Positions 12,623 through 35,600 of a stretch of DNA of 39,642 bases are shown here, piece after piece. Location of the stretch: IMG/VR virus record IMGVR_UViG_3300033148_007798, positions 1 through 39,642 of that record; one strand, given 5' to 3'. The stretch is from a virus. The notes beneath the pieces were generated by a model. The model saw only the letters and a program-made list of their open reading frames with translations. It had not been told where the DNA came from and did not search any database. The translations under genes were made by a program, and so were the position numbers. Numbering within the stretch: position 1 is the first letter of the stretch; the number at the start of each line of letters is the position of its first letter.

Positions 12623-15600
12623 TTACAACAACTCAAACATTTCCCTTAAATCTTTACTTAATTTATGTGGATATTCCAACCACATATATAAATTATCCCT
12701 AAATAACTGCATTGCATTACTCACAGAAGTATCAATACACTTACCATATTTATCCCAAACTTTACCAGAAGACAACTTAATATTATCAATCTCATCACAA
12801 TTCAAATTAGACGACACGACCCATCCATCAATCTCTTCAGTAGAACCAAATAATGGCTCAATATATCCAAAAATTTTATAAGTATTAATTTCATCTTCTG
12901 TTAAATCATAAGATATTCTTTTAAAATTCTTCAAGATAGTTTTACGTAGACTTTCATCTTCAAAAGGAATATATTTAATCAATGCATCTGTTATCAAATT
13001 ATCTTCCATTCCTATCCAATTACTCACATATAAAACCTTATCATCTCTATATACAGGAATCTTTCCACACTTAGCTGTAATCTCATAATTTAAACTAGCT
13101 GTAACCCACTGATGTTTCAACGAATCCTTCATATCTGGATTCTGTTCCTCATATGCCTTTTTTCGCTCCATTTGCCACCGATCATTGTACACAACATCCT
13201 TAATAAAAATTACATTATTATAGGATCTTTTTAAGTATTTACCTAATTTACTTATAAAAGTCTCAACAAACGGATAATACTCAACAGGACAATCTATTAT
13301 TTCAATATTATCTATAATCCCATTCTTATACCTATGCACAGCTTTATCTACAAAATTACCAAATTCCTCACCATCATATCCCTCAATACATGGTACCATT
13401 AATACAATTTCTCCTTCTGGAGAAATAATAGAAGATAAACTTTGTCCCTTTTTTAGTAAATCGTTTACATTATAATGTACCCCATCCAATACTAAAGAAT
13501 TAGATAATCTTATATTATAAACACCTTGCTCCTGAAAACCCTTTAGTTGCCCATAATAAAAACAACTGCTAATAGCACTGCATAAATAATCTCTGATATC
13601 ATCATCAATAGCCGCTTTCTCAATATTATCCAACCACGATTCAAATTCATTGGATAACACAATATCAGAATAATCACGTAAATTATTATCCCGTGCATAA
13701 TAATCATTATTAAGAGGCAGAAAACCTGTCTTACTATAAGAAGTTAATTTCCCTTGTAAATATAAATCAGTAAAAATCCCCAAAACAGCATCCTTATTTT
13801 CTCGAAGACCTTCCCATATATTTGAATATTTTTTACAAAACATATCCAATTTAGAACTAAACGCATCAAATAAATGTATAACCTCCATAGAAAGTTTAGG
13901 AGATCTAATCGCTGTTTTCCATTTTAAATACGAAGCAGGTAAAGCATCTTTTAATAAATCTTTCACATACTTTTCTTCTGCGCTATATATATGCTCACTT
14001 CGTGAAATAGTAGGAGCAAATTGACCATGTTTTATAAACTCCTTTGAAGAAGACGCGGTATTTTTCAAAGATTCTGATAAATCTTCATTCACTATTTTTT
14101 CTTTCGTCTCATTAAAATTCTTTTTTCCCTTTTTAAATCTATCTTTTAATCTAGCCAAAGGACCCAAACCAGGCAATCCACCAGGAGGTCCAGCAGGAGA
14201 TGTGGGTTGTAGTCTTACACCAATCATCTGCTCCAATTCTTTCTGTCTATCTTTATTATACAATTCTTCCTCGAAATTCAAACCCATTGACAATAACAAT
14301 GTAATAGCAGAAATAGGACCCTTACCCTGAGCATATACATTATTCAAAAATGTAAGATACTGTTGATCATCACGTAACATTAATTTCTTATGCCATAACA
14401 TTTTAGGTATAATCAATCTACGTCTACGCTCCTCACCTGTTTTATTAAATCTCAAATAAGGCCCGTTCGATCCTAATATTTCTCTAGCATCTCGTTTATA
14501 CCATCCATTACGTTCAGCCATTATTCGTAAAAATTTATTTTGAATCCATTGTATTTCAAATAAATCCCTCTTAGCTTTATAACGTGCTAATTGTGTTTGT
14601 AATGCCACATTTGCAGATGCATATGTAGTTTTACCCTCCATAAATTCCTGACTTACCCCCAGAGCCACCATCTTTCTCTTATTAATCTCATCCCATTCTT
14701 TCTCCAAACGCATAACTTTATCCGCAACCGTAATATATTCTACCTGTAAACCATAATGATAAATCAACGAAAAATTAGGATCCATATTAGCATGTTCCAA
14801 CATCTGAGCTATTGCCCTCTGATGTGTCTCGTCAGGAATCCATCCTTTCTGAGGATCTCCTAGTTTAAAAAGCTTCAAAGGATATATAAAATTATCCGCA
14901 ATAGTTAATTGTGCCTCTCGTAACTTATCCTCATACATTAACGTATTTGAAGTAACAAAATTACCCCCACATAACCACCAATGATCTACATCAACAGTAA
15001 GATCATAAACCCTGCCTTGATATTCAGCAATATCAATAGATTCAATTTTGACATAAAAAAAGTCATCATCTATATATCTAGAATTATCCGATCGTTTATC
15101 TGTAATATCAATATAATTCTTCAAAAGCTGAATAAAATCATTATACTCAATATATCTATAATATTGCAATAAAGATGTATAAAAAGAATAATCAATCTTA
15201 TTAATAATAGTAAATATAACACATTCGTCCATCAAATAATTTACAAAATTACTTGAAATATACAATAATGAATCATCGAACTCAGTAATAATCTTAGAAA
15301 AAATTCTATTGCGAAATAATAACCATTGTATTTGATACGCCAAATCCGTAGAAAATAAAGGTATGGTTACATCATTATTATAAGATTTACCAACTACAAC
15401 AGACAAAAAACCATCTAAAAAAGACATTTGAATATCTGTAGAAAATGATAAAAAATCAGTTAATAACTTTACAAAATCTTTTTGTAAAGAAGATATATAT
15501 TCATATAAAAAACCAATAATAAAAGAAGTATGAAATGAATCCCTTATTAAGAGTTCATATGTATATTCATAGACATTTAAATCATACTCAATATCTGGAA

Positions 15601-16843
15601 ATTCCTCTTGCAAGATATATAAAAAATCATCTTTACCACATTGATCCATTTTCAAAATCATACGTATTTGTTTATTAACATATTCAAATAAACCTTCATT
15701 CAATAAACCAACAATATAACCCAAAAATCTCGCAGTCTCATTATTTTTTATAGTAGCAGACCTGACCTTTTTATCTATGGGAATTAATAAATAATCCCCT
15801 TCATTAATTTTTTCCGCCTCAAGTGTAATAATTGAACTATTTCTACCTATTTTATATTTATGTCCAAATGTAGAACAAAGAGTACCCTCAAATTCATAAG
15901 GTTTAATAGATACCAAAGATGTATCCACATCATAAAAAACAGTATCAACTACCTTACGTAAATTACCACGAATAGAATAAACAGAATCGTTTATTTTAAC
16001 ATCTTCAATAGCCTTAACAGTACCATCCCCACATCGAACTTTTGTCCCAGGAACATAACAACGGAATATTCTATTAAGAATAGAAGTACCTCGTATATCA
16101 TAAGGATTCGATCTACGTGCAATATGTGTGACTTCGTCTGAATCTAAAACGATATTCTTACCAGTTAAAACACGTCTGATAATCTCTTTTGGTAATTTAC
16201 GTTTTAAACGTTGATCTTCTGGTCTAGTCGAATGCACAATAGATTTTAATTCTTCATCTGGCTTAATTTCAATAACACATTCAGTATCAGCAAAGGGACT
16301 AGCCGTAACTTCTACAAAATCTGGATTATGGATAATAATATGACTCCACATGCCTTTAGAACTATCCCAATGATTATATATAAAAACTTCCCCTATTTTC
16401 ATAAATTCCAGATCAATTAAGGGTAACATAGAATAAAATCTAGTTCTTTCAAAACATTCCTCTACATGTCGTTTAATTAAAGGATCATCTACAATAATCT
16501 CAGCACGAGAATGCGGTAATTCGGCATGCAACTCTAAAACGGCTCCTATCATTTCATCATGATCATGAAACCATCTACACCATCTATTTTTTTGCCTAAT
16601 ATTTCTAGGCAAAAAAATAGCAGTAGTTGTTATTTCAGGATCATAAAAACGTCTAGCAGGATTCCTATATATATTTAAAGAATTCCCACCGTATTGAGGA
16701 AAAAATGCAGCATTAAATGATGTACCTGCTAATCCTGTAAAAGTAGCAGCTTTTCTATCCAAAAATTCAGGATCAGCCTCAACAAAAATTGATCTGGGAA
16801 TCATGTTATTAAAGTTCCCAAACATCTCATCCTTTTCTGACAT
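12623..16843 (-). CDS. Portal protein precursor interrupted by an intein
   Basis: A 1406-aa frame: N-extein 1-261, intein 262-633, C-extein 634-1406 (mature 1034 aa). The N-extein holds NRWCRWFHDHDEMIGAVLELHAELPHSRAEI, RFYSMLPLIDLEFMKIGEVFIY and a DEVTHIARRSNPYDIRGTSILNRIFR segment. The C-extein resumes TLMYEDKLREAQLTIADNFIYPLKLFKLGD and VMRLEKEWDEINKRKMVALGVSQEFMEG. This is the pattern of T4/SPO1-type portal proteins, the dodecameric ring through which DNA is packaged. The portal fold should end near the Pro/Gly-rich linker TSPAGPPGGLPGLGPLARL. About 450 residues of unrecognised, partly basic sequence follow, which is unusually long. The start ATG at 16841-16843 lies 7 bases after the coiled-coil gene. 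Its final codons overlap only a rejected TTG frame of the next gene. Confidence 0.75.
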   Translation of the reverse strand: MSEKDEMFGNFNNMIPRSIFVEADPEFLDRKAATFTGLAGTSFNAAFFPQYGGNSLNIYRNPARRFYDPEITTTAIFLPRNIRQKNRWCRWFHDHDEMIGAVLELHAELPHSRAEIIVDDPLIKRHVEECFERTRFYSMLPLIDLEFMKIGEVFIYNHWDSSKGMWSHIIIHNPDFVEVTASPFADTECVIEIKPDEELKSIVHSTRPEDQRLKRKLPKEIIRRVLTGKNIVLDSDEVTHIARRSNPYDIRGTSILNRIFRCYVPGTKVRCGDGTVKAIEDVKINDSVYSIRGNLRKVVDTVFYDVDTSLVSIKPYEFEGTLCSTFGHKYKIGRNSSIITLEAEKINEGDYLLIPIDKKVRSATIKNNETARFLGYIVGLLNEGLFEYVNKQIRMILKMDQCGKDDFLYILQEEFPDIEYDLNVYEYTYELLIRDSFHTSFIIGFLYEYISSLQKDFVKLLTDFLSFSTDIQMSFLDGFLSVVVGKSYNNDVTIPLFSTDLAYQIQWLLFRNRIFSKIITEFDDSLLYISSNFVNYLMDECVIFTIINKIDYSFYTSLLQYYRYIEYNDFIQLLKNYIDITDKRSDNSRYIDDDFFYVKIESIDIAEYQGRVYDLTVDVDHWWLCGGNFVTSNTLMYEDKLREAQLTIADNFIYPLKLFKLGDPQKGWIPDETHQRAIAQMLEHANMDPNFSLIYHYGLQVEYITVADKVMRLEKEWDEINKRKMVALGVSQEFMEGKTTYASANVALQTQLARYKAKRDLFEIQWIQNKFLRIMAERNGWYKRDAREILGSNGPYLRFNKTGEERRRRLIIPKMLWHKKLMLRDDQQYLTFLNNVYAQGKGPISAITLLLSMGLNFEEELYNKDRQKELEQMIGVRLQPTSPAGPPGGLPGLGPLARLKDRFKKGKKNFNETKEKIVNEDLSESLKNTASSSKEFIKHGQFAPTISRSEHIYSAEEKYVKDLLKDALPASYLKWKTAIRSPKLSMEVIHLFDAFSSKLDMFCKKYSNIWEGLRENKDAVLGIFTDLYLQGKLTSYSKTGFLPLNNDYYARDNNLRDYSDIVLSNEFESWLDNIEKAAIDDDIRDYLCSAISSCFYYGQLKGFQEQGVYNIRLSNSLVLDGVHYNVNDLLKKGQSLSSIISPEGEIVLMVPCIEGYDGEEFGNFVDKAVHRYKNGIIDNIEIIDCPVEYYPFVETFISKLGKYLKRSYNNVIFIKDVVYNDRWQMERKKAYEEQNPDMKDSLKHQWVTASLNYEITAKCGKIPVYRDDKVLYVSNWIGMEDNLITDALIKYIPFEDESLRKTILKNFKRISYDLTEDEINTYKIFGYIEPLFGSTEEIDGWVVSSNLNCDEIDNIKLSSGKVWDKYGKCIDTSVSNAMQLFRDNLYMWLEYPHKLSKDLREMFELL
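14945..16060 (-). other. Intein in the portal protein (372 aa)
   Basis: Splicing blocks are visible. Block A is CYVPGTKVRCGDGTVKAIEDV with Cys1 at 16058-16060. Block B is LCSTFGHKYKIG (T-x-x-H form). Block F is QGRVYDLTVDVDHWWLCGGN, and block G is FVTSN with terminal Asn at 14945-14947, followed by Thr+1 of the C-extein. The penultimate residue is Ser, not the usual His. Between B and F there are remnants of a LAGLIDADG endonuclease: FLGYIVGLLNEGLF retains an acidic residue, whereas FLDGFLSVVVGKS has Val in place of the second catalytic acid. The exteins join as LNRIFR plus TLMYED, which restores a continuous portal helix. The endonuclease is probably inactive. Confidence 0.88.
16584..16620. 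repeat. Perfect 14-bp inverted repeat with 9-base loop inside the portal gene
   Basis: Arms CTATTTTTTTGCCT (16584-16597) and AGGCAAAAAAATAG (16607-16620) are exact reverse complements around a 9-base loop. It lies in the coding sequence for LPRNIRQKNRW near the portal N-terminus. It resembles a terminator hairpin with A/T-rich flanks incorporated in the stem. Its role is unknown. Confidence 0.6.
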
Positions 16844-22426: not shown

Positions 22427-24328
22427 TTAATAAGATGTGCCATTCTTATTTAAATTCTTTAATTTCTCAATTAATTTTTCATCAATAACATCATCAGGAA
22501 TTTTATATTTTGTTTTTGATACCGTTTGTAATTTTAGTCCGCTTTTACAAGCATATTTTTTTATATTAATGTCAATGTCAAAATGTTTTTCCAGTAAATC
22601 CCAATCTTCTTTTACAGGTATTGAACCGCCAAAATCTTTACGTAACCAATGTCCGACAGTATGTTTGTATTCTTTTGGGAATAATTCAGTAAATGCTTTT
22701 TTTGTTAGATTATTTTTTGTTCTTATATAATTTAAGTAATCAGCAATTATATTTTGATTAACATTATACAAACGCTGAACTGCAAAAAATTCTTCTTCAA
22801 CAGAACTTCTTGCTCCTGGCGATGCTCCCCAATTTTTTCGTTCAACATTATTAAATTTGCCATTGTAATTTTTAGTTGTTGCATTTTTTTCAACAACTTG
22901 ATTGTTACTTATATTTTCTCCTATAATATTATCAATTTCAACAAATTCTGTTAATTCTTTTACTGAAACATATCCTTTAAATTGAAATAATTCTATGTTA
23001 TTATTGATTTCTTCAATATCATTTATAACATATTCTCTAGTTAGCGCGTTATTATCCCATAAAACTTTTACATATTTTGGTAAACCGTTGTTATGCCTTT
23101 CAATAATTTCGATTACAACGCCTTTAATCTTTTTCTTTTGGATATTATTTTCAACCTTATAGCCGATGAAATTTATATTACGATAATTGATTTCTTCTAG
23201 AGATTTATGATTAAGAGACAATGATTTATAGTTAAAATTATATTTATGTGTTTTATTGTCGTGAACGAGCATAAAAACGGGATACCATTTATTTTTTCTT
23301 ACAACTAATTTATTTCGTATTATCCAGTTTTCTATCAATGAAATATTGTATATATCATCAATGGTATAATTTTTTAAACCAATAAATAATATTTTGTCTT
23401 TTTGAAATTGTTTGATAAATTCTTTATTGGTAATTGTGTTTAATGCTTTGTAAAAATCATCACTATTTTCAAAAATATTTACTGTATTTAATTCAATTTG
23501 AACTTGTGCATTTCTCGAACAAGTTGATTTTTCAAAAACTGGTTCGGTCAAAATAGGATATTTATAATCAATATAATTAAGTTTTATTATATCAATATTA
23601 TTAAGTTTTGTTCTGTCTTTAATAATGTTAATATATTCACCATTAAATTCTATCATAATGCCTTTTGCCTTATATTCACTAAACATCGAACTGTTTTTGT
23701 CGTTTAATACTTTCAAAGTTGTTCCGCTGCCGGCAAAAGGGTCAAGCACGGTATAGTCTTTATCTATTTTTATGAAATCAAGTAGTTTATATACTAATTT
23801 TTCGGGATATACCGCTACGTGTTTATAAGGCGTAGGTTGAAGGTTTACATCGATTACATTTGAATAATTCGGATTTTCCTTAATATAATCGGTAAAAAAA
23901 TTTTCTTTATTTTTTGACAGAGCAAAAACGGGTTCATAAGAATTGACAAATCTATTTTTAACACTGGAAGGCATATGATTGGGTTTGTGCCAAATGATTG
24001 TATCGTTAATTATCCAACCGTTTTGTTGCATAAAATATGCTAATTTGTATGGTATCAAACCCAAAGGTGTTTTTCCGTATTTATTGAGATACTTATCACC
24101 TATATTTAGAAAAAACACACCTTTATCTGATAATTTTTCTTTTAATATATCAAATAAAAAAGTAAGACGGGACACAAATTCCATATATGTAGCTTCACTT
24201 CCTATTTGTTTATCGAAACCATAATTTCTTTGCGCCCAGTATGGCGGTGAAGTAACAGCTACATCAATGGAATTGTTTTCAAGATGTTTTAATGCGGCAT
24301 ATATGTCAGACTGAATAATTATATACAT
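22427..24328 (-). CDS. DNA methyltransferase, N4-cytosine/N6-adenine type, with C-terminal HTH-like domain
   Basis: A 633-aa protein. Residues 22-31 (DVAVTSPPYW) are catalytic motif IV of amino-methyltransferases. The TSPPYW form is most typical of N4-cytosine enzymes. DPFAGSGTTLKV (196-207) is the S-adenosylmethionine-binding motif I. Motif IV before motif I is the beta-group order. Between them lies GVFFLNIGDKY and IIWHKPNHMPSS. Residues about 240-480 are likely target recognition and accessory domains, including a beta-rich GVVIEIIERHNNGLPKYVKVLWDNN. The C-terminal 130 residues (RKNWGASPGARSSVEEEFF ... YLNYIRTKNNLTKKAFTELFPKEYKHTVGHWLRKDF) look like a helix-turn-helix module known with some phage methyltransferases. 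No restriction gene is adjacent, so it is an orphan methyltransferase that may protect phage DNA. The plus strand is visibly T-rich here, unlike neighbouring genes, so acquisition is plausible. Confidence 0.85.
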   Translation of the reverse strand: MYIIIQSDIYAALKHLENNSIDVAVTSPPYWAQRNYGFDKQIGSEATYMEFVSRLTFLFDILKEKLSDKGVFFLNIGDKYLNKYGKTPLGLIPYKLAYFMQQNGWIINDTIIWHKPNHMPSSVKNRFVNSYEPVFALSKNKENFFTDYIKENPNYSNVIDVNLQPTPYKHVAVYPEKLVYKLLDFIKIDKDYTVLDPFAGSGTTLKVLNDKNSSMFSEYKAKGIMIEFNGEYINIIKDRTKLNNIDIIKLNYIDYKYPILTEPVFEKSTCSRNAQVQIELNTVNIFENSDDFYKALNTITNKEFIKQFQKDKILFIGLKNYTIDDIYNISLIENWIIRNKLVVRKNKWYPVFMLVHDNKTHKYNFNYKSLSLNHKSLEEINYRNINFIGYKVENNIQKKKIKGVVIEIIERHNNGLPKYVKVLWDNNALTREYVINDIEEINNNIELFQFKGYVSVKELTEFVEIDNIIGENISNNQVVEKNATTKNYNGKFNNVERKNWGASPGARSSVEEEFFAVQRLYNVNQNIIADYLNYIRTKNNLTKKAFTELFPKEYKHTVGHWLRKDFGGSIPVKEDWDLLEKHFDIDINIKKYACKSGLKLQTVSKTKYKIPDDVIDEKLIEKLKNLNKNGTSY

Positions 24329-24508
24329 TTTCTATTAACAATTTAATAAACAAGAATTAATTACTTCAAAATAAAAAAAATAAACTTGTCAACTACAATA
24401 AAAAATAATAAAAATTATTTAAAAATTAAAAAATACTTTGACAAAAAATCTAAAAAAACTCATACTATCAATCTATCAAAATTTTTTATAAAAGAGGAAT
24501 CATAAATA
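24329..24508. promoter_or_regulatory. Divergent AT-rich control region between left and right operons
   Basis: A 180-base, extremely AT-rich stretch with long A tracts between divergent genes. It carries the plus promoter described separately, a second TTGTCA on the plus strand (24386-24391), and overlapping this a perfect TTGACA on the minus strand (plus 24387-24392), about 60 bases before the methyltransferase start. No good minus -10 element is visible at 16-18 bases from it. A tracts next to the -35 could act as UP elements. No coding sequence was seen. Confidence 0.5.
24438..24466 (+). promoter_or_regulatory. Candidate early promoter for the right operon
   Basis: A perfect TTGACA (24438-24443), a 17-base spacer and CATACT (24461-24466, 4/6 match to TATAAT) stand about 43 bases before the ATG at 24509. 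Poly-A runs upstream may enhance it. AAAGAGGA at about 24491-24498 is the ribosome binding site of the first gene. Early host-polymerase transcription of the replication genes is the likely purpose. Confidence 0.6.
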
Positions 24509-25276
24509 ATGACCACAACTACTCTTGCTATTTACAGTGATTTCCATATAGGAACCAAAGAAAATAATGATGATTTTAAGATAGATGAAAAATTATTTAT
24601 AGAATATATAAATGCATCTATAAAAAAATATGACATAGTAATATTTAATGGTGACGTTTTTGAACTATGGCAAGGAAAATCATGGAATAATGACCTAAAA
24701 ACTTTTGATAATATCAGAGAAGCCAGACCATTAATAACAAACTATATAATAAATTCTATTAAAGCATCAAAAATAGAATACATTATAGGCAATCACGATT
24801 GGATATTATATCAGAAACAAATTATCCCCCTTATAAAATCTCATTACTCATACAATTCACCAAATGGATTAATATGGATAGAACATGGACACAAACCAGA
24901 TATATTCAATAATAGGTGGAGTATATTTGGAAAATTTATAACTTGGATAACAGGCTGGATAGAACGTTGCATTTATAACGACATCGATATAAAAATAGCA
25001 AAATTACTAGATCTAAATATAACAGCGAATACCTCCAGATTACCATATATAAAATATGCGGAAAAATTAATAAAAAAAATGAATTTAAACATAATAGCAC
25101 TAGGACATACACATAGACCATATAGACAATCAATAACTGTAAATAATCAACATAAACCATGTATAGCTAGTTACATAGATACTGGTAAATGTTGTGATAG
25201 CAATCACCTCGATGAAACTATAATCAGAATAGGTGATACCAATAACACAATATATCAATACAAACGAACACTATAA
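24509..25276 (+). CDS. Metallophosphoesterase, LpxH-like
   Basis: A 255-aa calcineurin-type metallophosphoesterase with a complete metal site: D11-x-H13 (YSDFHIG), G48-D49 (IFNGDVFELW), GNHD at 94-97, H126-x-H128 (EHGHKPD) and GHTH at 199-202. The order and the EHGHKPD segment resemble UDP-2,3-diacylglucosamine hydrolase (LpxH)-like proteins, but phage members may act on other phosphoesters. Length is typical. It starts with ATG behind AAAGAGGA and is the first gene of the right operon. The next gene starts 19 bases after its stop. The coding strand carries as much or more C than G, as on the plus strand further left and unlike most later genes in this operon. The substrate is unknown. Confidence 0.85.
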   Translation: MTTTTLAIYSDFHIGTKENNDDFKIDEKLFIEYINASIKKYDIVIFNGDVFELWQGKSWNNDLKTFDNIREARPLITNYIINSIKASKIEYIIGNHDWILYQKQIIPLIKSHYSYNSPNGLIWIEHGHKPDIFNNRWSIFGKFITWITGWIERCIYNDIDIKIAKLLDLNITANTSRLPYIKYAEKLIKKMNLNIIALGHTHRPYRQSITVNNQHKPCIASYIDTGKCCDSNHLDETIIRIGDTNNTIYQYKRTL

Positions 25277-25295
25277 AATAAAAAAGAGGTGCAAA

Positions 25296-26729
25296 ATGAA
25301 CTACCAACAAGAATTTTTTGATGCTATAGCAAGGTTAACTGGTCAAAAAAATATACTCACCATACCAGTATTGTTCATTGATTTCACTGGTAATTTAGAA
25401 GCAGCCTTATTTTTAAGCCAGTTACTCTATTGGACTTCACGCAGTAATAATCAAGGATGGGTATACAAAACCTACAAAGAATGGCAAGAAGAACTACGAT
25501 TATCTGAGTATCAAATCAGAAATATCACAAAAAAATTCAAAAAACAAGGGTTTTTAGAAACAAAAGTTAAAAAGGTACATGGCAATCCAACCCTACATTA
25601 TCGCATAAAAATAGAAAACTTTTCAGAAACCTTCTTAAAATTTTTACGGGGTGGTTCCCTTAAAAATTTAAGGGACGTACCCGAAATTTCCGCAGGTTCT
25701 ATTAATACAGAAACTACTACAGAAACTACTACAGAAACTACAAAAAAAATAATAGAAAGGGAAAATCCCTTTCTAAAATTTATCCCGGTTAGGGAAACTG
25801 GAAATAAAGATATATATACAGCTTTTAATAAAAAAGAAAACTTGGAATTAATCCGTCCGGACGGATTAATTCAACAAACAGAACAGCTACAACAGTTGTG
25901 TGTATCTAAATTTAAAAAGAAAAAAGATGCCATAAGTTTTTTTAATTTTATTTATAATGTACAAGTAAATGACTATACACAATTATGTAAGTTTGCTAAA
26001 TCTATTTGTAATGAATATACTTCTGATATTCTGCTAACTGTTAGAAAAAAAATTGAAGAAGATATAAAAAAAGGCTTGATATCTCATTACAATATTCCAT
26101 ATGTGAAAACTGCCTTAGAAATAGAACAAAAGAATGCAATGGAGTATAATTATAAAAACGGTTTTAAGAAATTTTGTATAGAATATTTTAAGGATACTAA
26201 GCGTTCTAATACAGTATATAACTTTTATACAAAAATATTAACAACATCTAAAGACAGTAGAATAAAGAATAACTATCATGGATTGCATATAGATAATATA
26301 AAAGAGCGTAGGATACATAATATTAAGAGTATTATAAATACATACGGTGAAGACATATTTTTTAAAGTTATAGATATTTTTGCTGATTATAAGATACAAG
26401 GTGTGTGGCCTAAGAGCTCATTTACACTTCTCCATTTTACTAATTATGTACGTAAATGCTTTGAGGGTAAATATCAAAAACAACAAACTGAAGAAGAAAA
26501 CAAAGTTGCAGATAGAACACAGCAAGAAGAAATAAAAAATGATGTACCTAATATTATCCCAATAGTACACAAAAAGGTACGGGATACATATAAAGATAAT
26601 TTAATACAATATAATTGGAACTATAAGTGTAAATGTGGTACTATTGTTGAATTATACGAGAGTCACTGTAGTACATGTGGAAAATATTTATTATGGGATA
26701 AAGTTGATTATTCTTTGATTTTAAGCTAA
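25296..26729 (+). CDS. Replication initiator-like protein (winged-helix N-terminus, zinc ribbon C-terminus)
   Basis: A 477-aa protein from ATG at 25296, chosen because AAAGAGGT precedes it. An in-frame ATG at 25233 would overlap the previous gene and has no ribosome binding site. Residues 16-110 (TGQKNILTIPVLFIDFTGNLEAALFLSQLLYWTSR ... WVYKTYKEWQEELRLSEYQIRNITKKFKKQGFLETKVKKVHGNPTLHYRI) are the winged-helix pattern of phage replisome organisers and DnaD-like initiators. A low-complexity linker with TETTTETTTETT follows (about 138-148), then a helical region with PYVKTALEIEQKN. The C-terminus CKCGTIVELYESHCSTCGK is a zinc-ribbon-like CxC-x(12)-CxxC. Inverted and direct repeats lie inside the coding sequence (25.65-25.87 kb), as in phages whose origin is within the initiator gene. 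Neighbours are recombination nucleases. Confidence 0.7.
   Translation: MNYQQEFFDAIARLTGQKNILTIPVLFIDFTGNLEAALFLSQLLYWTSRSNNQGWVYKTYKEWQEELRLSEYQIRNITKKFKKQGFLETKVKKVHGNPTLHYRIKIENFSETFLKFLRGGSLKNLRDVPEISAGSINTETTTETTTETTKKIIERENPFLKFIPVRETGNKDIYTAFNKKENLELIRPDGLIQQTEQLQQLCVSKFKKKKDAISFFNFIYNVQVNDYTQLCKFAKSICNEYTSDILLTVRKKIEEDIKKGLISHYNIPYVKTALEIEQKNAMEYNYKNGFKKFCIEYFKDTKRSNTVYNFYTKILTTSKDSRIKNNYHGLHIDNIKERRIHNIKSIINTYGEDIFFKVIDIFADYKIQGVWPKSSFTLLHFTNYVRKCFEGKYQKQQTEEENKVADRTQQEEIKNDVPNIIPIVHKKVRDTYKDNLIQYNWNYKCKCGTIVELYESHCSTCGKYLLWDKVDYSLILS
25656..25675. repeat. Inverted repeat 1 in the initiator gene
   Basis: Nine-base arms TCCCTTAAA and TTTAAGGGA around a 2-base centre. A further outer pairing, CGGG (25647-25650) with CCCG (25680-25683) and flanking T/A runs, lengthens the potential hairpin. 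It is the first of three closely spaced inverted repeats, possibly part of an origin. Confidence 0.6.
25707..25741 (+). repeat. Tandem 12-bp repeat, three copies
   Basis: ACAGAAACTACT is repeated in direct tandem: two complete copies and a third lacking its last base. It encodes TETTTETTTETT in frame. Its place between inverted repeats 1 and 2 makes an iteron-like role possible, but a slippage-derived linker is the simpler explanation. Confidence 0.75.
25753..25775. repeat. Inverted repeat 2 in the initiator gene
   Basis: Arms TAGAAAGGG (25753-25761) and CCCTTTCTA (25767-25775) are exact reverse complements around AAAAT. It is the second of three inverted repeats within about 220 bases. Confidence 0.65.
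25845..25872. repeat. Perfect 28-bp palindrome in the initiator gene
   Basis: The arm GAATTAATCCGTCC (25845-25858) is followed with no spacer by its exact reverse complement (25859-25872). A GC-rich centre (TCCGGA) in such AT-rich DNA, and inside a coding region, is unlikely by chance. Candidate uses are a dimeric protein binding site, a cruciform or an origin element. Confidence 0.8.
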
Positions 26730-26741
26730 GGAAACCGTATC

Positions 26742-27875
26742 ATGATTTTAATTATAGCAGATGTGCATTTGGGTCATAGATTATATTCTGCACATACCCA
26801 GACAGGTATAACTACAGCAGAATATGATACTAGATATGCTTTGGAACGTGTATATGAAAGAGTTATAAAACCTGATATTGATATGATTATATGTGCGGGG
26901 GACTTCTTTAATACACATCGACCAAGTAGTGAGAATGTGAGATGGAGTATTACATGGTTCAACAGGATAAATACTTTAGGTAAACCTTTTTATATAATTC
27001 CAGGAAATCATGACATTACTACATATTCTAATTCTATGGCATTTCTAAAAGCTTTAGATTTCGAAAATGTTTATTTCTTGACAGATGATATATACAGGAT
27101 TGTATGGAAAGGGTGGAATATTTATTTTGTACCTTTTTTCAGTAGTACTACAAAAGATAAATATTCACCAACTTATGAAAAGTTGATATCTATTATGCAA
27201 ACACTTAATCCTACTGACAAAAATATAATAATTACACATATACAAGAATCAGCAGCAAAAATAGGAGCTGAGAATTTTATTTTATCTAAAGGAGTTTCTG
27301 TTTTTGAATTGGATGAATATACAGTACAATATCCATTCACGAAATTTATAGCTGGTCATATGCATTTGCAACAGGAATATAAAAAAAAGAATGGTATTCA
27401 CGTAGTTTATCCAGGATCCTTAACATATATGGATTTTGTGGATTGTGGAAAACTTAAAGGATATGTTACAATGGATGAAGAAGGTAATATTAAGTTTGCA
27501 GAAATTGACGGGCTTCGTCGTTATATACATTCTGTTTATAAAACAGAAGAAGAACTGGAAAGTTTTTTAGAAACTCTACCAAATACTGTTGATAATATTT
27601 GCATTTTTCTTACAGTACCTTCTAATCTTAAAATGTCTGAATCTGCTATACGTAAGATATTTTCTGAAAAGGGTTATGAGGTTTCTCGTATTCAATATTT
27701 TACAGATGATAAAGATAAAGTCTTTCTCCATGTAGATAATGTAAAGAGTAAAAATCCTATACAACTTCTAGAAACATGGTTACATGCATATAAAGATACT
27801 ACAGATGAATCTATAGATATCGACAAAATAATAGAAAGGGGTAAGGGTTATATAAATGCATATCAATCGTCTTGA
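26742..27875 (+). CDS. sbcD: SbcD/Mre11-type nuclease subunit (T4 gp47-like)
   Basis: A 377-aa metallophosphoesterase nuclease with all Mre11/SbcD motifs: D7-x-H9 (IADVHLGH), G53-D54 (CAGDFFNTHRP), PGNHD at 87-91, ITH at 164-166 and AGHMH at 204-208. The C-terminal part (about 260-377) corresponds to the capping and SbcC-binding region. In phages this pair processes DNA ends for recombination-dependent replication. The start ATG follows AAGGAAA. Its last 20 bases overlap the start of the SbcC gene, a typical translational coupling for this two-subunit complex. Length and motif order are normal, and all metal ligands are present. Confidence 0.9.
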   Translation: MILIIADVHLGHRLYSAHTQTGITTAEYDTRYALERVYERVIKPDIDMIICAGDFFNTHRPSSENVRWSITWFNRINTLGKPFYIIPGNHDITTYSNSMAFLKALDFENVYFLTDDIYRIVWKGWNIYFVPFFSSTTKDKYSPTYEKLISIMQTLNPTDKNIIITHIQESAAKIGAENFILSKGVSVFELDEYTVQYPFTKFIAGHMHLQQEYKKKNGIHVVYPGSLTYMDFVDCGKLKGYVTMDEEGNIKFAEIDGLRRYIHSVYKTEEELESFLETLPNTVDNICIFLTVPSNLKMSESAIRKIFSEKGYEVSRIQYFTDDKDKVFLHVDNVKSKNPIQLLETWLHAYKDTTDESIDIDKIIERGKGYINAYQSS

Positions 27876-29973
27876 ACTTAAGGGATTTATGTCATATAGG
27901 GATACTACTATTATTGAGTTTCCCGATGGTATAATTGGAATTACGGGTTGTATTGAAGATGATATAACTAGATCTAACGGTAGTGGTAAATCTAGTATTG
28001 TAATGGCAATACTATTTGCATTATACGGAACTGGTATCTTTTCTAAAAAGGATGAGGTATGGTTTGATTCATTACCTTCTGGAGAGGAGGTATATGTTAA
28101 ATTATTTTTCGAATTGAATGGCAATAATTATACAATCCAGCGAGGTGGTAAAAAGGCTACAAGTAGTTATCTAACTGTATATGAAAATGATGTTAAGTGT
28201 GGATCTTCAATAAAAGAATCCCAAGAATTTATTAATTCATTAATGTGTATGGATTCATGGTTATTTACAGCATCAGTATTTTTTTCACAAAATGATATAT
28301 CCTCATTTATAACAACTACTCCTCAAAAAAGACGAGAATATATAGATTCTGTACTAGACATAGCTATCTATGGAGATATGTATAAGATATGTAATAAAGA
28401 TCGAAAAGCAGTTGAGAACTCTATAGCAACTATGAAAGTTGATATTGATACTGATGTTGAAAAAGCTAAACAAGTGAAAGCTGATATAAATAAAATCGAC
28501 AATATAATAAAAAATAAGAATAAACTGAAGCAAGAACATGATAAAAAAATGAAAGAGTTGCTTCAAATAGAATCTGTGAAAACTATTATAAAAACTGTCA
28601 AAGAATATGAAAGTATGTTAGAAGTATCTATTACTGAAAAAACGAAGTTAGACAATAAAGAACAAGAACTAGAACAATCTATAGAAAAGACGAAAAATAT
28701 ATTGGATGGGTTACAAGAGATTGAGCAAGTATTTGAACAATATAAAGATTTTAATGAGGAACAACAACAGGCAAGTATAAAGAAACTGTCAGAAGAAATT
28801 TCTGTTTGTGAAGAAGAAATAAATAATCATACAGAAAGACGAAATATATTAGAAAAAGAGATTATTGCACTAAATATAGAAATACAAAATTTAGAAAAAG
28901 ATAAATATAAATTATCAGTAGGCATTTGTTCTCAATGCGGTAAAGAGATAAGTGAAGAAGATGTACAATTCCACCAAGCAGAAATAGAAAAAAATATAAC
29001 TAATATAAAGAAACGTAAAATAGACATAGAAAAAAATTCCGAAGTTATCTTACAAGAAATTCAGAAAAAAACAGCAACACTAACTCTCAATAAAGAAGAA
29101 ATATCAAAAATAGAACGTAGGTTCTCTGAATATGAAAGAATGAAAAATGAATATAATATGAAAATGCAATATAAAGAACGAATGACAGAAGATTTAAAAA
29201 GATATGATAAAGAATTAGGAGATATTGATCAAAGGATTAAAGAAACCACAGTATTAATTAATAAATACACTGTCGATATAGAAACTCTAAAAAATAAGAT
29301 ACCAAAGAATTTCGATTCTTCTGTGGAAGAAGTTCAACAAGAAATTGCAGAGATAGAGGAAGCATTATCTGATATAGATAAAAAAACTGGTATGGTTGAT
29401 CATATGAGAAAAATATTATTAGATATAGAATCTAATATATCTAAAAATAAGGATGAAATGAAACGTTTGTATGAAGAGGTTAATACTTTATCAATACTTG
29501 CACAGGCTTTCAAACAAATACCTGTACAGATATTTAATGAATCTATACTTGCTATAGAAATATATGCTAATGAAATTATACAAAATATATTGACACATTT
29601 CAAAGTTAAGTTATATATAGATGAAACTAAAGAAAGACAGCCTTTAAATGTTGCGTTTGAAATTAATAATGAATATCGTAATTATAATATGCTTAGCGGG
29701 GGCCAACAAGTAATATGTGCATTAGGTCTGCGTATTGGATTTAGTAAAGTAATTACACAGAGATCTAGAACTTCCATAAATTTTTTAGTACTAGATGAAA
29801 TATTTGGAGCACTTGATGAATCCAATCGAAAAGATGTTATTAGAATATTAACAGAAATATCTAATTATTTTAAACAAATTTTTGTAATAACGCATACTGA
29901 GGAAGCATCAATGTTTCCTTATAACATTAATGTTTTAATGAATTCGGAAGGAATCAGTACTTGTTCCTTTTAA
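27856..29973 (+). CDS. sbcC: SbcC/Rad50-type ATPase subunit (T4 gp46-like)
   Basis: A 705-aa SMC-like ATPase. The N-terminal LELKGFMSYRDTTIIEFPDGIIGITG leads into Walker A NGSGKSS (41-47). Long coiled coils on both sides (about 190-350 and 370-560) flank the zinc hook CSQC (C358, C361). The C-terminal lobe has the ABC signature LSGGQQ (613-618) and Walker B FLVLDE (643-648) followed by FGALDE. It forms the ATP-driven DNA-binding partner of the SbcD nuclease. It is shorter than bacterial SbcC, as phage gp46 homologues are. The start ATG at 27856 is inside the sbcD 3' end, with AAAGGGGTAAGGG upstream. Confidence 0.92.
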   Translation: MHINRLELKGFMSYRDTTIIEFPDGIIGITGCIEDDITRSNGSGKSSIVMAILFALYGTGIFSKKDEVWFDSLPSGEEVYVKLFFELNGNNYTIQRGGKKATSSYLTVYENDVKCGSSIKESQEFINSLMCMDSWLFTASVFFSQNDISSFITTTPQKRREYIDSVLDIAIYGDMYKICNKDRKAVENSIATMKVDIDTDVEKAKQVKADINKIDNIIKNKNKLKQEHDKKMKELLQIESVKTIIKTVKEYESMLEVSITEKTKLDNKEQELEQSIEKTKNILDGLQEIEQVFEQYKDFNEEQQQASIKKLSEEISVCEEEINNHTERRNILEKEIIALNIEIQNLEKDKYKLSVGICSQCGKEISEEDVQFHQAEIEKNITNIKKRKIDIEKNSEVILQEIQKKTATLTLNKEEISKIERRFSEYERMKNEYNMKMQYKERMTEDLKRYDKELGDIDQRIKETTVLINKYTVDIETLKNKIPKNFDSSVEEVQQEIAEIEEALSDIDKKTGMVDHMRKILLDIESNISKNKDEMKRLYEEVNTLSILAQAFKQIPVQIFNESILAIEIYANEIIQNILTHFKVKLYIDETKERQPLNVAFEINNEYRNYNMLSGGQQVICALGLRIGFSKVITQRSRTSINFLVLDEIFGALDESNRKDVIRILTEISNYFKQIFVITHTEEASMFPYNINVLMNSEGISTCSF

Positions 29974-30002: not shown

Positions 30003-31451
30003 ATGTTGTTAGAGAATGTATATAATTCTTTTGTAAAGCATACTGGTTTAACAGATGTTATCTATAGATCGGTATTTATAAATATCTCCGATATTTTAAA
30101 AAATATTTCTGATATAGATTGGATGTCCTGTTCTTATACAGATTCTGAACAAGGGGTAGAATTTTATTTTGATGATACAGAATATATTCCTTTGTTCATT
30201 ATAGAATTGATTTTTAATATTTTTGAAAATTTTTATACACTTCCTGAAGATGCAGAAATGTCTGTAAGCTTGAGATATAAAGATAAAGAATATACAATCA
30301 GACATGATAGTACTGATAATACTATTCCAACTGATCTAGAGTTTATTAGAAAAAATAAACTATTTAGGTTCTTTGTACTTGATAGACCTGTTGCTGATTT
30401 ATTTATGGAATTTGATCGGATATTTGAATTCATTAATGGATTTCAGAGAAAAATTACTTCTGTATATCAACCTCTGCAAAAACTTTTTAATAAAGAATCT
30501 GATTTGGTCATAAAAGAAAAAACACATGTGCATCAAGATATTACTATGAATAAACTGAATATAGAAAAACTGAAAGTAGATATGGATCGTGTGTTGGAAG
30601 ATATAACAAAAGTCAATGATGAGAAGATAAACCTACAGAAAGAAAGAAATGAACTAGTACAAAAATTAAACCAAAGAGAGGCTTTGTTGTCAAAGAGGGA
30701 AAAGCTCTCAATAGAATATTCTACTATATTGCAGAACAGACAGAACTATGTAGAGAACCGAACAAATATAGAGAAAATATTAGCTGATATAAATGTAACT
30801 CTTGAAGATATAGCAGCTCGAAAAACCGCTTCAGACGATGTTGTCGAAAGAGACCTTTTCATTAAGAAAAAAACAGCATTTGAAAAGAATTTGATGCATA
30901 TAGATGCGCTGTTACAAAATATAGATGCTACATTAAATGATATATTAAGCAAACGACAAAGTACTGTTTCAGAATTAGAAGTAATTGATCAGATATCTAT
31001 TAGTCATATTGAAAATATCGATAAAGAAATACAACTTAAGGAAGAGAGATACGAAAAGCTATATAATACTCTTGTAAATCTAGAATCTGAATTGAAAAAA
31101 CAAAAGCATGAAGAAGTAGTACGGGAAGCATCTGTAGAGAACGATGCTTCGTATGCTACTGCAACAATAACAGATATAGAAAAAACTTCAATTGCTTCAC
31201 ATTTATCTAGCCCACTACAACCTACAGCCGTATTAACCGTTCAAAACTATTTAAGATATTATTTTTATCATTACGCAAATCTGAAAGTTGAGCAAGATAT
31301 TACAAATATTGATTCTTCTTTGAAAAAATCAATATATAGTAGATTAATTCTTCTAGAACACTTCAATATCTCATTGAATAAATTGTTTACCATAATAGAC
31401 TATACTTATCCATCTACAATTAAAAAGATTGTAAAAATCACTAGAGAATAG
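30003..31451 (+). CDS. Hypothetical coiled-coil protein between sbcC and the reductase
   Basis: A 482-aa protein, family not recognised. Residues 1-155 appear globular with many aromatic and acidic residues (MLLENVYNSFVKHTGLTDVIYRSVFIN, VEFYFDDTEYIPLFIIELIFNIFENF). Residues about 175-375 are a long charged coiled coil. The C-terminal 90 residues form another helical domain (VQNYLRYYFYHYANLKVEQD). A ribosome binding site with AGGATGG precedes ATG 30003. Placed 29 bases after sbcC and 3 bases before the next gene, it is surely co-transcribed with the recombination genes. The architecture, a head domain plus coiled coil, could suit a scaffold or recombination partner, but it lacks any ATPase motif. 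Confidence 0.6.
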   Translation: MLLENVYNSFVKHTGLTDVIYRSVFINISDILKNISDIDWMSCSYTDSEQGVEFYFDDTEYIPLFIIELIFNIFENFYTLPEDAEMSVSLRYKDKEYTIRHDSTDNTIPTDLEFIRKNKLFRFFVLDRPVADLFMEFDRIFEFINGFQRKITSVYQPLQKLFNKESDLVIKEKTHVHQDITMNKLNIEKLKVDMDRVLEDITKVNDEKINLQKERNELVQKLNQREALLSKREKLSIEYSTILQNRQNYVENRTNIEKILADINVTLEDIAARKTASDDVVERDLFIKKKTAFEKNLMHIDALLQNIDATLNDILSKRQSTVSELEVIDQISISHIENIDKEIQLKEERYEKLYNTLVNLESELKKQKHEEVVREASVENDASYATATITDIEKTSIASHLSSPLQPTAVLTVQNYLRYYFYHYANLKVEQDITNIDSSLKKSIYSRLILLEHFNISLNKLFTIIDYTYPSTIKKIVKITRE

Positions 31452-31454
31452 ATA

Positions 31455-31850
31455 ATGCTTTTTAGACGATTTATCCCTAATAAAAAGAAATCAAGAAGAA
31501 TATTTAAGACTATGTGTGATTATGTAAATGCACATAGAACCTTTCTTATGTCAAAAGAAAACATGCTTAATAAGAAATATAAAATGTATATGCAAAATAG
31601 CGATAAGATATATATTACTTTACAAGACTTTATGAACTTTATAGAAGATGATTCTATTACTACTGAAGATATTTTAAATAGCTGTAGAACATTGGCCGAG
31701 ATACAATCTGGAAAAATCGATTATATAGATGTATGGGCTATATCGGAAGATAACCATATCATCTTATGTGCAGATAAGACTAAGTGTAAACAACATAAAG
31801 ATTCCACTATGTCTAAAATACGCATATCTACTATACAAATTAAAGAATAG
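31455..31850 (+). CDS. Hypothetical basic protein
   Basis: A 131-aa protein, family not recognised. Lys/Arg-rich N-terminus (MLFRRFIPNKKKSRRIFKTMCDYVNAHRTFLMSKENMLNKKYKMYM), then an acidic helix (TLQDFMNFIEDDSITTEDILNSCRTLAEI) and a beta-rich end with ILCADKTKCKQHK. The ATG lies just after the stop of the preceding gene, a tight operon arrangement with coupled translation. The basic N-terminus might bind nucleic acid. This is inference only. Confidence 0.55.
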   Translation: MLFRRFIPNKKKSRRIFKTMCDYVNAHRTFLMSKENMLNKKYKMYMQNSDKIYITLQDFMNFIEDDSITTEDILNSCRTLAEIQSGKIDYIDVWAISEDNHIILCADKTKCKQHKDSTMSKIRISTIQIKE

Positions 31851-31861
31851 AATTAATTATT

Positions 31862-32572
31862 ATGGTTGTTGAGACAGAATTTGGTAAATATACAAAAACT
31901 AGTAGAATATGTACAATATGTACAAGATCTGATCATATGGAAATTAATGCTCTCAGAGCTAGGGATCATTTAACATATGATGAAATAATAGCAAAAAAAC
32001 CAGATTTAACTATTGAGGCTCTAGATATTCATTTCAGAAATCACTTTATAATTTCCAAAGTAAATCGACAAATATTAAATCTGAAAGAAGAAAATAGTCA
32101 GGAATCTATTGAACTTGTATCTAGAATACTTGAAGGAGATGTGGATTTATTCGGTGCTCTACATGATATGCTAGAAGTAAATGCACAAAGATTGCATATT
32201 ATAAATGAACGTATTAAAAAAATTTCAGACGATATAGAAATAGATAATACCGATGAAATGCAACTTCAAGAGTTTGTAGCTTTAAATAGATTATCAGATT
32301 CTATAGAGAATAAAATTTTGAAAATATATGAGATGATGCATAAATATATATTCCCAAAGGATATATCTAAAGCGGTCATGCAATTTCAGTATACCACGCT
32401 CAGTAAATTTGTGAATAGTATCATAAAAGTATTGATACATTTTGAACAAAATACAGAATATTCTGGATTGGTTCAAAATATTCGAGCAATGCTTTCACAT
32501 GAAATTTCTAATATAGAGACAGCTATATTAAAATCAGGAGGTGTGCTGAAGCTACCAGACGAATCTAAATAA
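31862..32572 (+). CDS. Zinc-binding HTH-like hypothetical protein
   Basis: A 236-aa protein. Residues 15-62 (RICTICTRSDHMEINALRARDHLTYDEIIAKKPDLTIEALDIHFRNHF) follow a widespread pattern C-x2-C-x(4)-H ... I-x(n)-E-I ... x-H-x(3)-H: two Cys (17, 20) and His (25, 57, 61) that probably bind zinc, combined with a helix-turn-helix in the middle. The remainder (65-236) is helical, with a coiled-coil stretch. Proteins with this N-terminal domain include small terminase-like and regulatory proteins, so a DNA-binding role is likely, but the exact one is open. It starts with ATG at 31862 without a strong Shine-Dalgarno, 11 bases after the previous stop. Confidence 0.6.
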   Translation: MVVETEFGKYTKTSRICTICTRSDHMEINALRARDHLTYDEIIAKKPDLTIEALDIHFRNHFIISKVNRQILNLKEENSQESIELVSRILEGDVDLFGALHDMLEVNAQRLHIINERIKKISDDIEIDNTDEMQLQEFVALNRLSDSIENKILKIYEMMHKYIFPKDISKAVMQFQYTTLSKFVNSIIKVLIHFEQNTEYSGLVQNIRAMLSHEISNIETAILKSGGVLKLPDESK

Positions 32573-32612: not shown

Positions 32613-35600
32613 ATGCAAGAAAATACAACTAATAATAGTATATTTGATACACTGCTCCAGGAATTTGTATATATACGTACTTATTCTCGATGGATTGAAG
32701 AAAAAGGTAGAAGAGAGACATGGGGAGAAACAGTATTTAGATATTGTAAATACATGAAAGATAAATTCGGAGATAAAATAACTGATAAAGAATTTAAGGA
32801 TGTATATAATGCTATTTATAATTTAGAAGTTATGCCTTCCATGCGGGCTTTGTGGTCTGCTGGTATTGCTGCAGATACAGAAAATTTAGCAATTTTTAAT
32901 TGTGCATTTACTACTATTGAGAAGTTAAAAGATTTTGCTGAACTATTGTATATATTAATGAATGGTACTGGTTGTGGTTATAGTGTAGAGAGAAAATATG
33001 TAAATCAATTACCTGTCATAAAAGATGCTAATAACAATAATAAAATAGTCAAAATAGTATTTTCTGATAGTAAACTTGGATGGGCACGTGGGTTTGAGAA
33101 AGTTCTAGAATGTCTGTGGGAGGATCAGAAATTTATATGTGACTACAGTAAAATAAGACCACGGGGAGAAAGACTTAAAACATTCGGAGGAAGAGCCTGT
33201 TTGACCGATGATTGTATATTGTATGAATACATTGATGATAGATATATAGAGATTAATCTACGAGATTTAATACGAAAATTTAAAGATTCTAATCAAAAAG
33301 ATATTTACTTGAAAGCATTAGACGAAACTACAGGTAAACTAGTACCAAATTTGTTGCTAGATATTGTTGATAATGGAAAAGCACCTGTATATGAAATACA
33401 GACAAAAAAAGGTTATAAGATAAAGGCTACATATGACCATAGATTTATGCGGTCTGATGGTAAATGGCAAGTATTGTCTAAATTTAATATAGGAGACAGA
33501 ATTGCTATAGGATCTATGCGTAAACAACTTGATGGTCACTGTATTGTATGTAAATGTTCTATATCACCTGTATCTCTATACTGTACACAATGCTATAACA
33601 CATCTGTGGATATTAATGATATTATATATATTAGTAAAGATACTGTTGTTGATATAAATAATGTCGCTTACACAACATTTGATAGTATTATTTCCATTAG
33701 AAAAATGGGACTTTTATATGTATATGATTTACAAATGCAATACCCAAGGAATTGTTTCATTGTTAATAATTTTGTAAGCCATAATAGTGGTCCTGAACCA
33801 CTACGAGATTTAATTAATTTCACTTCTGATATTGTAAAAGCCAATCGAGGTTTTAGACTAAGATCAATAGATGTGCATGATATTTGCTGTAAGATTGCTG
33901 AAGTAGTAGTTGTTGGTGGTACTAGGAGATGTTTACCTGGATATACTCGAATAAATTTAAAAAACGGAATACAATATATTAAAGATGTGAATGTAGGTGA
34001 TCGTGCTGTAATAGGAAATAAAGATTATATAATTGTAGGTAAAAAATATATAGGGCTACGATCTGTTTACAAATTAAAGCATAGATATGGTGATATTGTT
34101 TGTACTCCTGAACATCGTTTACTTGTATATGATAAAGAACAACAGGAAATAAATTTCAAAGAGGCTAGACAAATTGGAAAGAATGATTCTTTGTTATTGT
34201 CTTTAAATACATATGAGGGAACTATTTGTGAGCTACCTACAATAAAATATAAAAAATTCTTTTCTACGATTGTTTATAGTCCAATAAAATATCTCAACTC
34301 GAATGATACATCATATAACTTTATGTGGTTATTAGGTTTAGTGCTTGCACGGGGATATTTTACGAAGGGACATGTAGTCCTTTCTTTAGATGGATTGTAT
34401 AGAGAAAAGCTTGATTCTGCTTTGATAAGCCGAATAATTTATATTCTTATGGATATTGGTATACCCGCTATTAAAATAAAAATAGATAAAAAAGAATCCT
34501 CAAAGTATAGGATACATATATGTTCGAAATCTTTTACAAAATGGTTAAAATCCCATACTTATAGTGGATCTGGTTTTTTTGACATACCAAAATATGTATT
34601 GAAAGCATCTGTTGAGAATCGTATTGCGTATATAGCAGGTATTATTGATTCTGCAATAGGTATTGCAATATACGATAAATATTTTACTGATATTACATTA
34701 GGAAGTACTAATGATATATATTTACATAATTTGCAGACATTGTTTCATAGTATAGGTATAATTGTAAAATATAATAGTTATTCAGAAAATTCCTTACTGA
34801 TATCTACATCAATGTTTAATGCTATGATCGATATGATCAATAAATATTCATATAAGAAGCATACAAAAATAGATACACCACTAACTTCGTATCATGAAGA
34901 AGAAAATATTACGAATATAAAGATAAATAAACATATAGGAGATACTATTGTAAGTATTTTATATACAAACAAAAAACAAATTTATCTATCACCAATACAT
35001 GATATTAGTATCTATAAGAATGTGGTACCTGTTTATGATATAGAAGTAGATACTGCAGAAATATTTGTTGCAGAAAATGTTATAGTACATAATAGTGCAT
35101 TGATTAGTCTGTCGGATTTAACAGATAATGAGATGGCTAATGCTAAAATGGGTGAATTTTGGCGTGCCTATCCACAGAGAAGTCTATCAAATAATTCGGT
35201 TGCTTATACAAGAAAACCTGACATTATATCATTTTTAGATGAATGGAAAAATTTATATAGATCAAAAAGTGGAGAACGCGGTATTTTTAGCAGACCATCA
35301 GCACAAAAAAAAGTTACAGAGAATGGAAGAAGGGATAGTTCTGCTGTTATAGGGATTAATCCATGTTTTGCTGGTTATGAAGAAATACTTACTAGTGATG
35401 GTTATAAGACTTTTGAAGAATTAGATGGAACGGAACCAATTTTAATAAATGCTGATGGGGAAATGGTTAAGGGTAAAGTTTGGAAAAACGGTACAAAAAA
35501 TACTCTTAAAATTAAATTATCTAATAAAGTAATTATCACATGTACACCAGATCATATTTTTAAATTGAATGATGATACTGAATCTACTGCGAAAAATTTA

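Follow-up and report, generated by a model that had tools for sequence, protein, structure and literature searches.

A probable replication origin within a phage initiator gene, and a codon-frozen motif in the linkers of related initiators

Results

A candidate origin in the interdomain linker of the initiator

The + strand gene at 25296–26729 of virus record IMGVR_UViG_3300033148_007798 very probably holds a phage replication origin embedded in the coding sequence of its own initiator. In-gene origins are of a known kind, that of phage lambda being a textbook case. The DNA analyzed here (the window) is the whole of this linear record of 39,642 bases, which is an incomplete contig. A first-pass annotation had proposed a candidate origin inside the initiator gene, pointing to lambda-type origins as a parallel, and this proposal is supported by the O-like/DnaD-like profile of the protein, by repeats that exceed synonymous-shuffle expectation and coincide with the linker of the protein, by the iterons and codon-frozen motif of most of its relatives, and by the genetics of phage 80alpha.

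The gene encodes a protein of 477 aa that matched PHROGs families 6493 (7e-28), 9773 (1e-26) and 428 (1e-15) in profile searches. The families matched bear the names DnaD-like helicase loader and replication initiation O-like, and its tblastn relatives among GenBank phages carry the annotation of replication initiation protein. There was no Pfam match, RepA_N included, and a filing of the protein under RepA_N was therefore dropped; an NCBIfam search gave no usable match and a sequence search against solved structures gave no relative. AlphaFold2 predicts a winged-helix DNA-binding domain at residues 21–120 (codons at 25356–25655, + strand), with pLDDT mostly above 85–90. This predicted domain, a generic fold, aligns to winged helices including those of the Rep initiators 4pql/4pt7/5kbj, with Z of 8.2–8.6. 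Residues 121–196 (25656–25883, + strand) form a linker predicted to be disordered, with pLDDT about 29–45, and the C-terminal part is helical with moderate AlphaFold2 confidence. The linker nucleotides, our candidate origin, coincide almost exactly with the interval 25640–25880 picked out in the first-pass annotation, and all four repeat features that it listed are placed in codons 121–196, mid-gene between the domains.

No helicase or helicase loader, including a P-like loader, was recognised near the initiator, and tRNA and Rfam searches were empty. The DnaA box TTATNCACA occurs in the window only at 2889, 9712 and 22121, and none of these sites is near the origin. The genes next after the initiator are SbcD/SbcC-like according to PHROGs/Pfam profile searches; these SbcD-like and SbcC-like genes (26742–29973, + strand) lie directly downstream of the gene holding the 28-bp palindrome described below, and three ORFs in 30003–32572 had no usable family match in the profile search. 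A possible early promoter, TTGACA-17-CATACT at 24438–24466 (+ strand), known from a consensus match only, lies in an AT-rich divergent intergenic region and points towards the origin; the number of promoter-consensus matches in that region is near that of shuffles. Elsewhere in the window, a ribonucleotide reductase ORF of 1870 aa (32613–38225, + strand) matched its family in five stretches with intein-like sequence between them, and a portal protein ORF of 1406 aa (12623–16843, − strand) showed a split family match with an intein-like insertion.

Repeats in the linker exceed coding expectation

The dyad iteron TCCCTTAAA-AA-TTTAAGGGA at 25656–25675, assigned to no strand like the other inverted repeats below, has exact 9-bp arms and a 2-nt loop, as had been annotated. 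When this dyad, TCCCTTAAAAATTTAAGGGA, was searched against the whole 39.6 kb, a joint best non-self match (15/20) lay 24 bp upstream, at 25632–25651 (+ strand), where TTCTTAAAATTTTTACGGGG is probably a degenerate iteron copy. The window has one clear iteron and one degenerate copy, and its direct iterons are weak, the upstream stretch of its own locus giving P 0.56 for direct repeats and P 0.03 for the dyad in the shuffle test. The 12-bp tandem repeat, earlier placed at 25707–25741, was recovered as a 24-match run at period 12 starting near 25704; it comprises three units of ACAGAAACTACT at 25707–25743 (+ strand), a local form of the conserved ACAGAGANTACW element. The second dyad, TAGAAAGGGA-AAA-TCCCTTTCTA, lies at 25753–25775 as had been annotated, with arms of 10 bp rather than 9 and a 3-nt loop, and has the half-site AAGGGA in common with the iteron at 25656. 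The palindrome GAATTAATCCGTCCGGACGGATTAATTC at 25845–25872 is perfect over 28 bp (14+14), as previously read, and occurs once in the record. AT content at 25707–25766 was 67–80%, compared to 70% for the genome.

The whole 39,642-base window has just 13 inverted repeats whose arms reach 9 bp or more with a loop no longer than 12 nt, and 3 of them lie within these 220 bases. With the protein sequence held fixed, none of 1000 synonymous-codon shuffles reached the best inverted-repeat score of the initiator gene, nor did any of 1000 reach the summed score of its best three; the inverted repeats hence exceed what is expected of coding sequence. The 12-bp tandem run gave P = 0.005 against 1000 such shuffles.

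A codon-frozen motif follows the winged helix in related initiators

Scans of viral contigs with the whole initiator or the SbcD-like protein as a single query revealed no close kin of the phage; the scans that succeeded in finding relatives used the N-terminal domain and alignments. A first alignment-based scan covered 80 loci whose initiator homologues had been picked up by N-terminal patterns, so that the linker was not selected for, and a second covered 80 loci with another N-terminal type; redundancy was removed by collapsing sequences with 80% identity in their first 120 residues. Of the non-redundant phage initiators, 41 have the winged helix followed by the peptide T-E-x-T-T-E, encoded as ACAGAG-NNT-ACW-ACAGAG-NNT, i.e. 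ACAGAGANTACW in tandem. The exact peptide is missing from 27 further non-redundant initiators, and the motif is thus common among initiators without being universal.

The codons of the motif are nearly invariant. Compared to the numbers expected from each locus's own usage, Thr1 is ACA in 40/41 (12.9 expected, P 1e-20), Glu1 is GAG in 39/40 (16.1 expected, P 2e-15), Thr3 is ACA in 40/41 (12.9 expected) and Glu2 is GAG in 36/36 (14.8 expected), with codons fixed across locus GC contents of 31–59%. These P values, from 1e-20 to 2e-15, are too small, the sequences being related by descent; six control Thr/Glu positions in the same, equally related genes nevertheless followed codon usage (P 0.23 to 1). 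Information drops sharply outside the motif. AT content at the motif in GC-rich relatives was 0.60, compared to a locus mean of 0.45, an excess so modest that a plain melting role is unproven.

Of the 80 viral-contig loci read with the exact 20-base motif, 79 had it within an initiator-like ORF and always in one reading frame. Among 84,980 bacterial and archaeal genomes there were 27 matches, about 23 of them in initiator-like genes (Gammaproteobacteria, Bacilli, Clostridia, Natroniella, Dehalococcoidia and Nostoc) and the remainder in Thr/Glu-rich or unrelated proteins. A search confined to open-access text found the motif or its peptide in no paper on phages or origins, the one paper listed being about ticks; the motif is possibly undescribed, and a prior description may also exist.

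Measured against ACAGAG-NNT-ACW, the units of the window conform in their Thr codons, ACA and ACT, and depart from GAG. The tandem repeat belongs to this group as a deviant member: its place and its Thr codons fit, whereas the complete motif is absent. The exact variant ACAGAAACTACT was found elsewhere in viral contigs in only three records, all in non-initiator ORFs (Thr/Glu-rich or other).

Iterons precede the motif in relatives

The 110 bases preceding the motif have direct repeats beyond synonymous shuffles in 93% of the 41 initiators (combined P 4e-34; in a few genes the Thr/Glu repeat extends into this stretch and may slightly raise the count), and inverted repeats beyond them in 54% (P 1e-15). 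The corresponding values were 2% and 2% in an N-terminal control region, and 0% and 15% downstream of the motif, where the combined P for dyads was 0.12. Iterons are spaced at 22–24 bp in the phage locus L014, in staphylococcal phages and in Bacillus phage PM1. With downstream dyads in just 15% of relatives, a downstream palindrome was rejected as a family feature, and neither the second dyad (25753–25775) nor the palindrome (25845–25872) belongs to the features of the family.

Copies on plasmids and in a CRISPR array

Three iterons and three ACAGAG units are also present in an intergenic, non-coding segment (717–880) of the small Bacillus plasmid pBSG3 (NC_014104; locus L326), about 0.5 kb upstream of the plasmid's rep gene. 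The segment showed no initiator homology in a profile search. It is 76% identical over 164 bases to the initiator gene of PM1, and the alignment contains frame-breaking one-base indels between intact iterons and motif. This copy is the clearest sign that iterons and motif form a unit at the DNA level; it may act as a decoy or as a hitch-hiking origin, or be a relic. A related stand-alone copy was also flagged for pEA19 (L327). On pAQ4 of Picosynechococcus PCC 7002 (NC_010478, 2988–3021; L328), most of a CRISPR spacer is made up of the ACAGAGATTACTACAGAGA element, so that the array of this host seems directed against a phage origin. The plasmid copy and the spacer show other elements borrowing or targeting this DNA.

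Discussion

GC skew and alternative readings

The first-pass annotation had also argued from GC skew, placing the sign change here and not at the strand switch near 24.4 kb. Our recount of G versus C in its three intervals gave 67/84, 91/100 and 66/45, where it had 67/85, 92/100 and 66/45, so that only the third was exact. The sign change is real, and the cumulative G−C minimum of the window is at 25786, not at 24.4 kb; the minimum has little depth, with values no more than 30 counts away from it spanning 23135–26616, and a mosaic segment would explain it about equally well. Third-position G:C in the initiator gene is 13:28 left of 25786 and 35:24 right of it (Fisher P 0.008), and since this shift falls within one gene, transcription direction is not its cause. 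Coding third positions from 22427 to 25786 are C-rich on both strands, compared to G-rich in the rest of the window. We give an even chance to the reading that the switch at 25.8 kb is the edge of an imported segment (about 22.4–25.8 kb) joined inside the linker, and not a trace of bidirectional replication. The methyltransferase gene at 22427–24328 on the − strand has C-rich coding third positions, like the + strand genes up to 25.8 kb, and replication skew would not produce this on both strands, a pattern that favours an imported segment with its edge in the linker; the shift from 13:28 to 35:24 within the gene, however, is also what an origin predicts. An import of this kind would affect no more than the skew argument, and the origin could still lie at this very position. 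The cumulative skew is ambiguous and forms the weak part of the argument for an origin.

Some features of the window count against an in-gene origin: its tandem units carry GAA where GAG is conserved, their exact variant recurs in viral contigs only in non-initiator proteins, direct iterons are weak beside a single clear dyad, and neither a helicase loader nor a helicase is recognised nearby in the incomplete linear contig. The tandem repeat could then be a mere Thr/Glu-rich protein linker with unrelated inverted repeats around it, the origin lying elsewhere, e.g. in the AT-rich divergent intergenic region 24329–24508 or outside the contig. The GAA units indeed show no codon bias of their own, and TTTE repeats are found in unrelated surface proteins. 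We nevertheless regard this as improbable: in relatives the codons of the motif are frozen and iterons in excess of coding constraint occur at just this place, a non-coding plasmid copy exists, and the inverted repeats of the window exceed those of all synonymous shuffles. A separate question concerns the second dyad and the palindrome only, which might be minus-strand terminators or regulatory hairpins that stop antisense transcription of the initiator gene, rather than parts of the replication apparatus. Both sites score as terminator-like on the − strand, and the dyad at 25753–25775 folds at −14.9 kcal/mol (z −3.5) and is followed by TTATTTTTTT. Two such sites compared to 1.3 expected is no excess, though, the T run is also explained by Lys codons, and no minus-strand gene is near on that side. 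Termination is a live but less likely role for these two parts.

A model for origin function and its wider reach

For the in-gene origin, we infer a mechanism in which the winged-helix domain of the initiator would bind the dyad iterons at 25632–25675. The adjacent 12-bp tandem element (25707–25743) would then be opened, or would serve as a one-strand loading site, and the C-terminal part of the initiator would recruit the helicase machinery. This phage may have further protein-binding or fork-control sites of its own in the dyad at 25753 and the palindrome at 25845.

Beyond this one phage, the analysis brings out a codon-frozen ACAGAGANTACW element in the linkers of initiators from very different phages. 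We tentatively propose, with somewhat less than even confidence, that phage replication origins widely share tandem ACAGAGANTACW as a core at the DNA level, read by a host-common factor (for instance the replicative helicase, primase or DnaA), that the iterons confer phage specificity, and that the window represents a lineage whose three units have all changed in concert. Such a core might, on the same tentative footing, span phages and prophages of Gammaproteobacteria, Bacilli, Clostridia, Chloroflexota and cyanobacteria. The complement of the motif contains TAGTAA, which resembles DnaA-trios, a likeness that we keep as an idea only. This raises the question of what factor could recognise a single short motif in several phyla. 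We know of no rule at hand for locating in-gene origins in uncultured phages; with the sequence as sole input, the signature of iterons followed by ACAGAG would locate the origin, and often the iterons too, in the genomes of many phages and prophages.

Comparison with known systems

The lambda origin lies in the middle of the initiator gene O and contains four iterons of 18–19 bp, which are imperfect inverted repeats, beside an AT-rich tract of 38 bp (PMC7466680, PMC3349717). The window is alike in having repeats in the linker of an O-like initiator with a predicted N-terminal DNA-binding domain, and differs in having one clear dyad with a degenerate copy, a 12-bp tandem repeat, a second dyad and a 28-bp palindrome, with no P-like loader recognised. 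In the RepA_N protein Rep of pSK41, an N-terminal winged helix of about 120 residues is joined to a C-terminal domain by a linker, residues 121–199, that is encoded by origin DNA (PMC5703833). The layout in the window is the same, with the linker at 121–196, whereas its protein lacks a RepA_N Pfam match and its iterons are different.

In staphylococcal phage 80alpha, whose initiator is of the same general type, supplying the initiator gene ORF20 in trans did not rescue its deletion, from which the authors inferred an origin embedded in the gene, and ORF20-21 drove autonomous plasmid replication (PMC5499656). The annotated putative origin of 80alpha (NC_009526, 3675–3900; L324) has iteron-like repeats in the linker and then ACTAATAAT-type repeats, which appear to be a second class of tract; the ACAGAG motif was not found in gp20. 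Because its linker has ACTAATAAT-type repeats without ACAGAG, 80alpha supports the layout and not the motif. The ACAGAGANTACW-motif phage origins, grouped here (L014, L016, phiMR11, PM1 and others), resemble the window in having iterons and then the 12-bp tandem motif in the initiator linker, from which the window differs by GAA in place of GAG in all three units.
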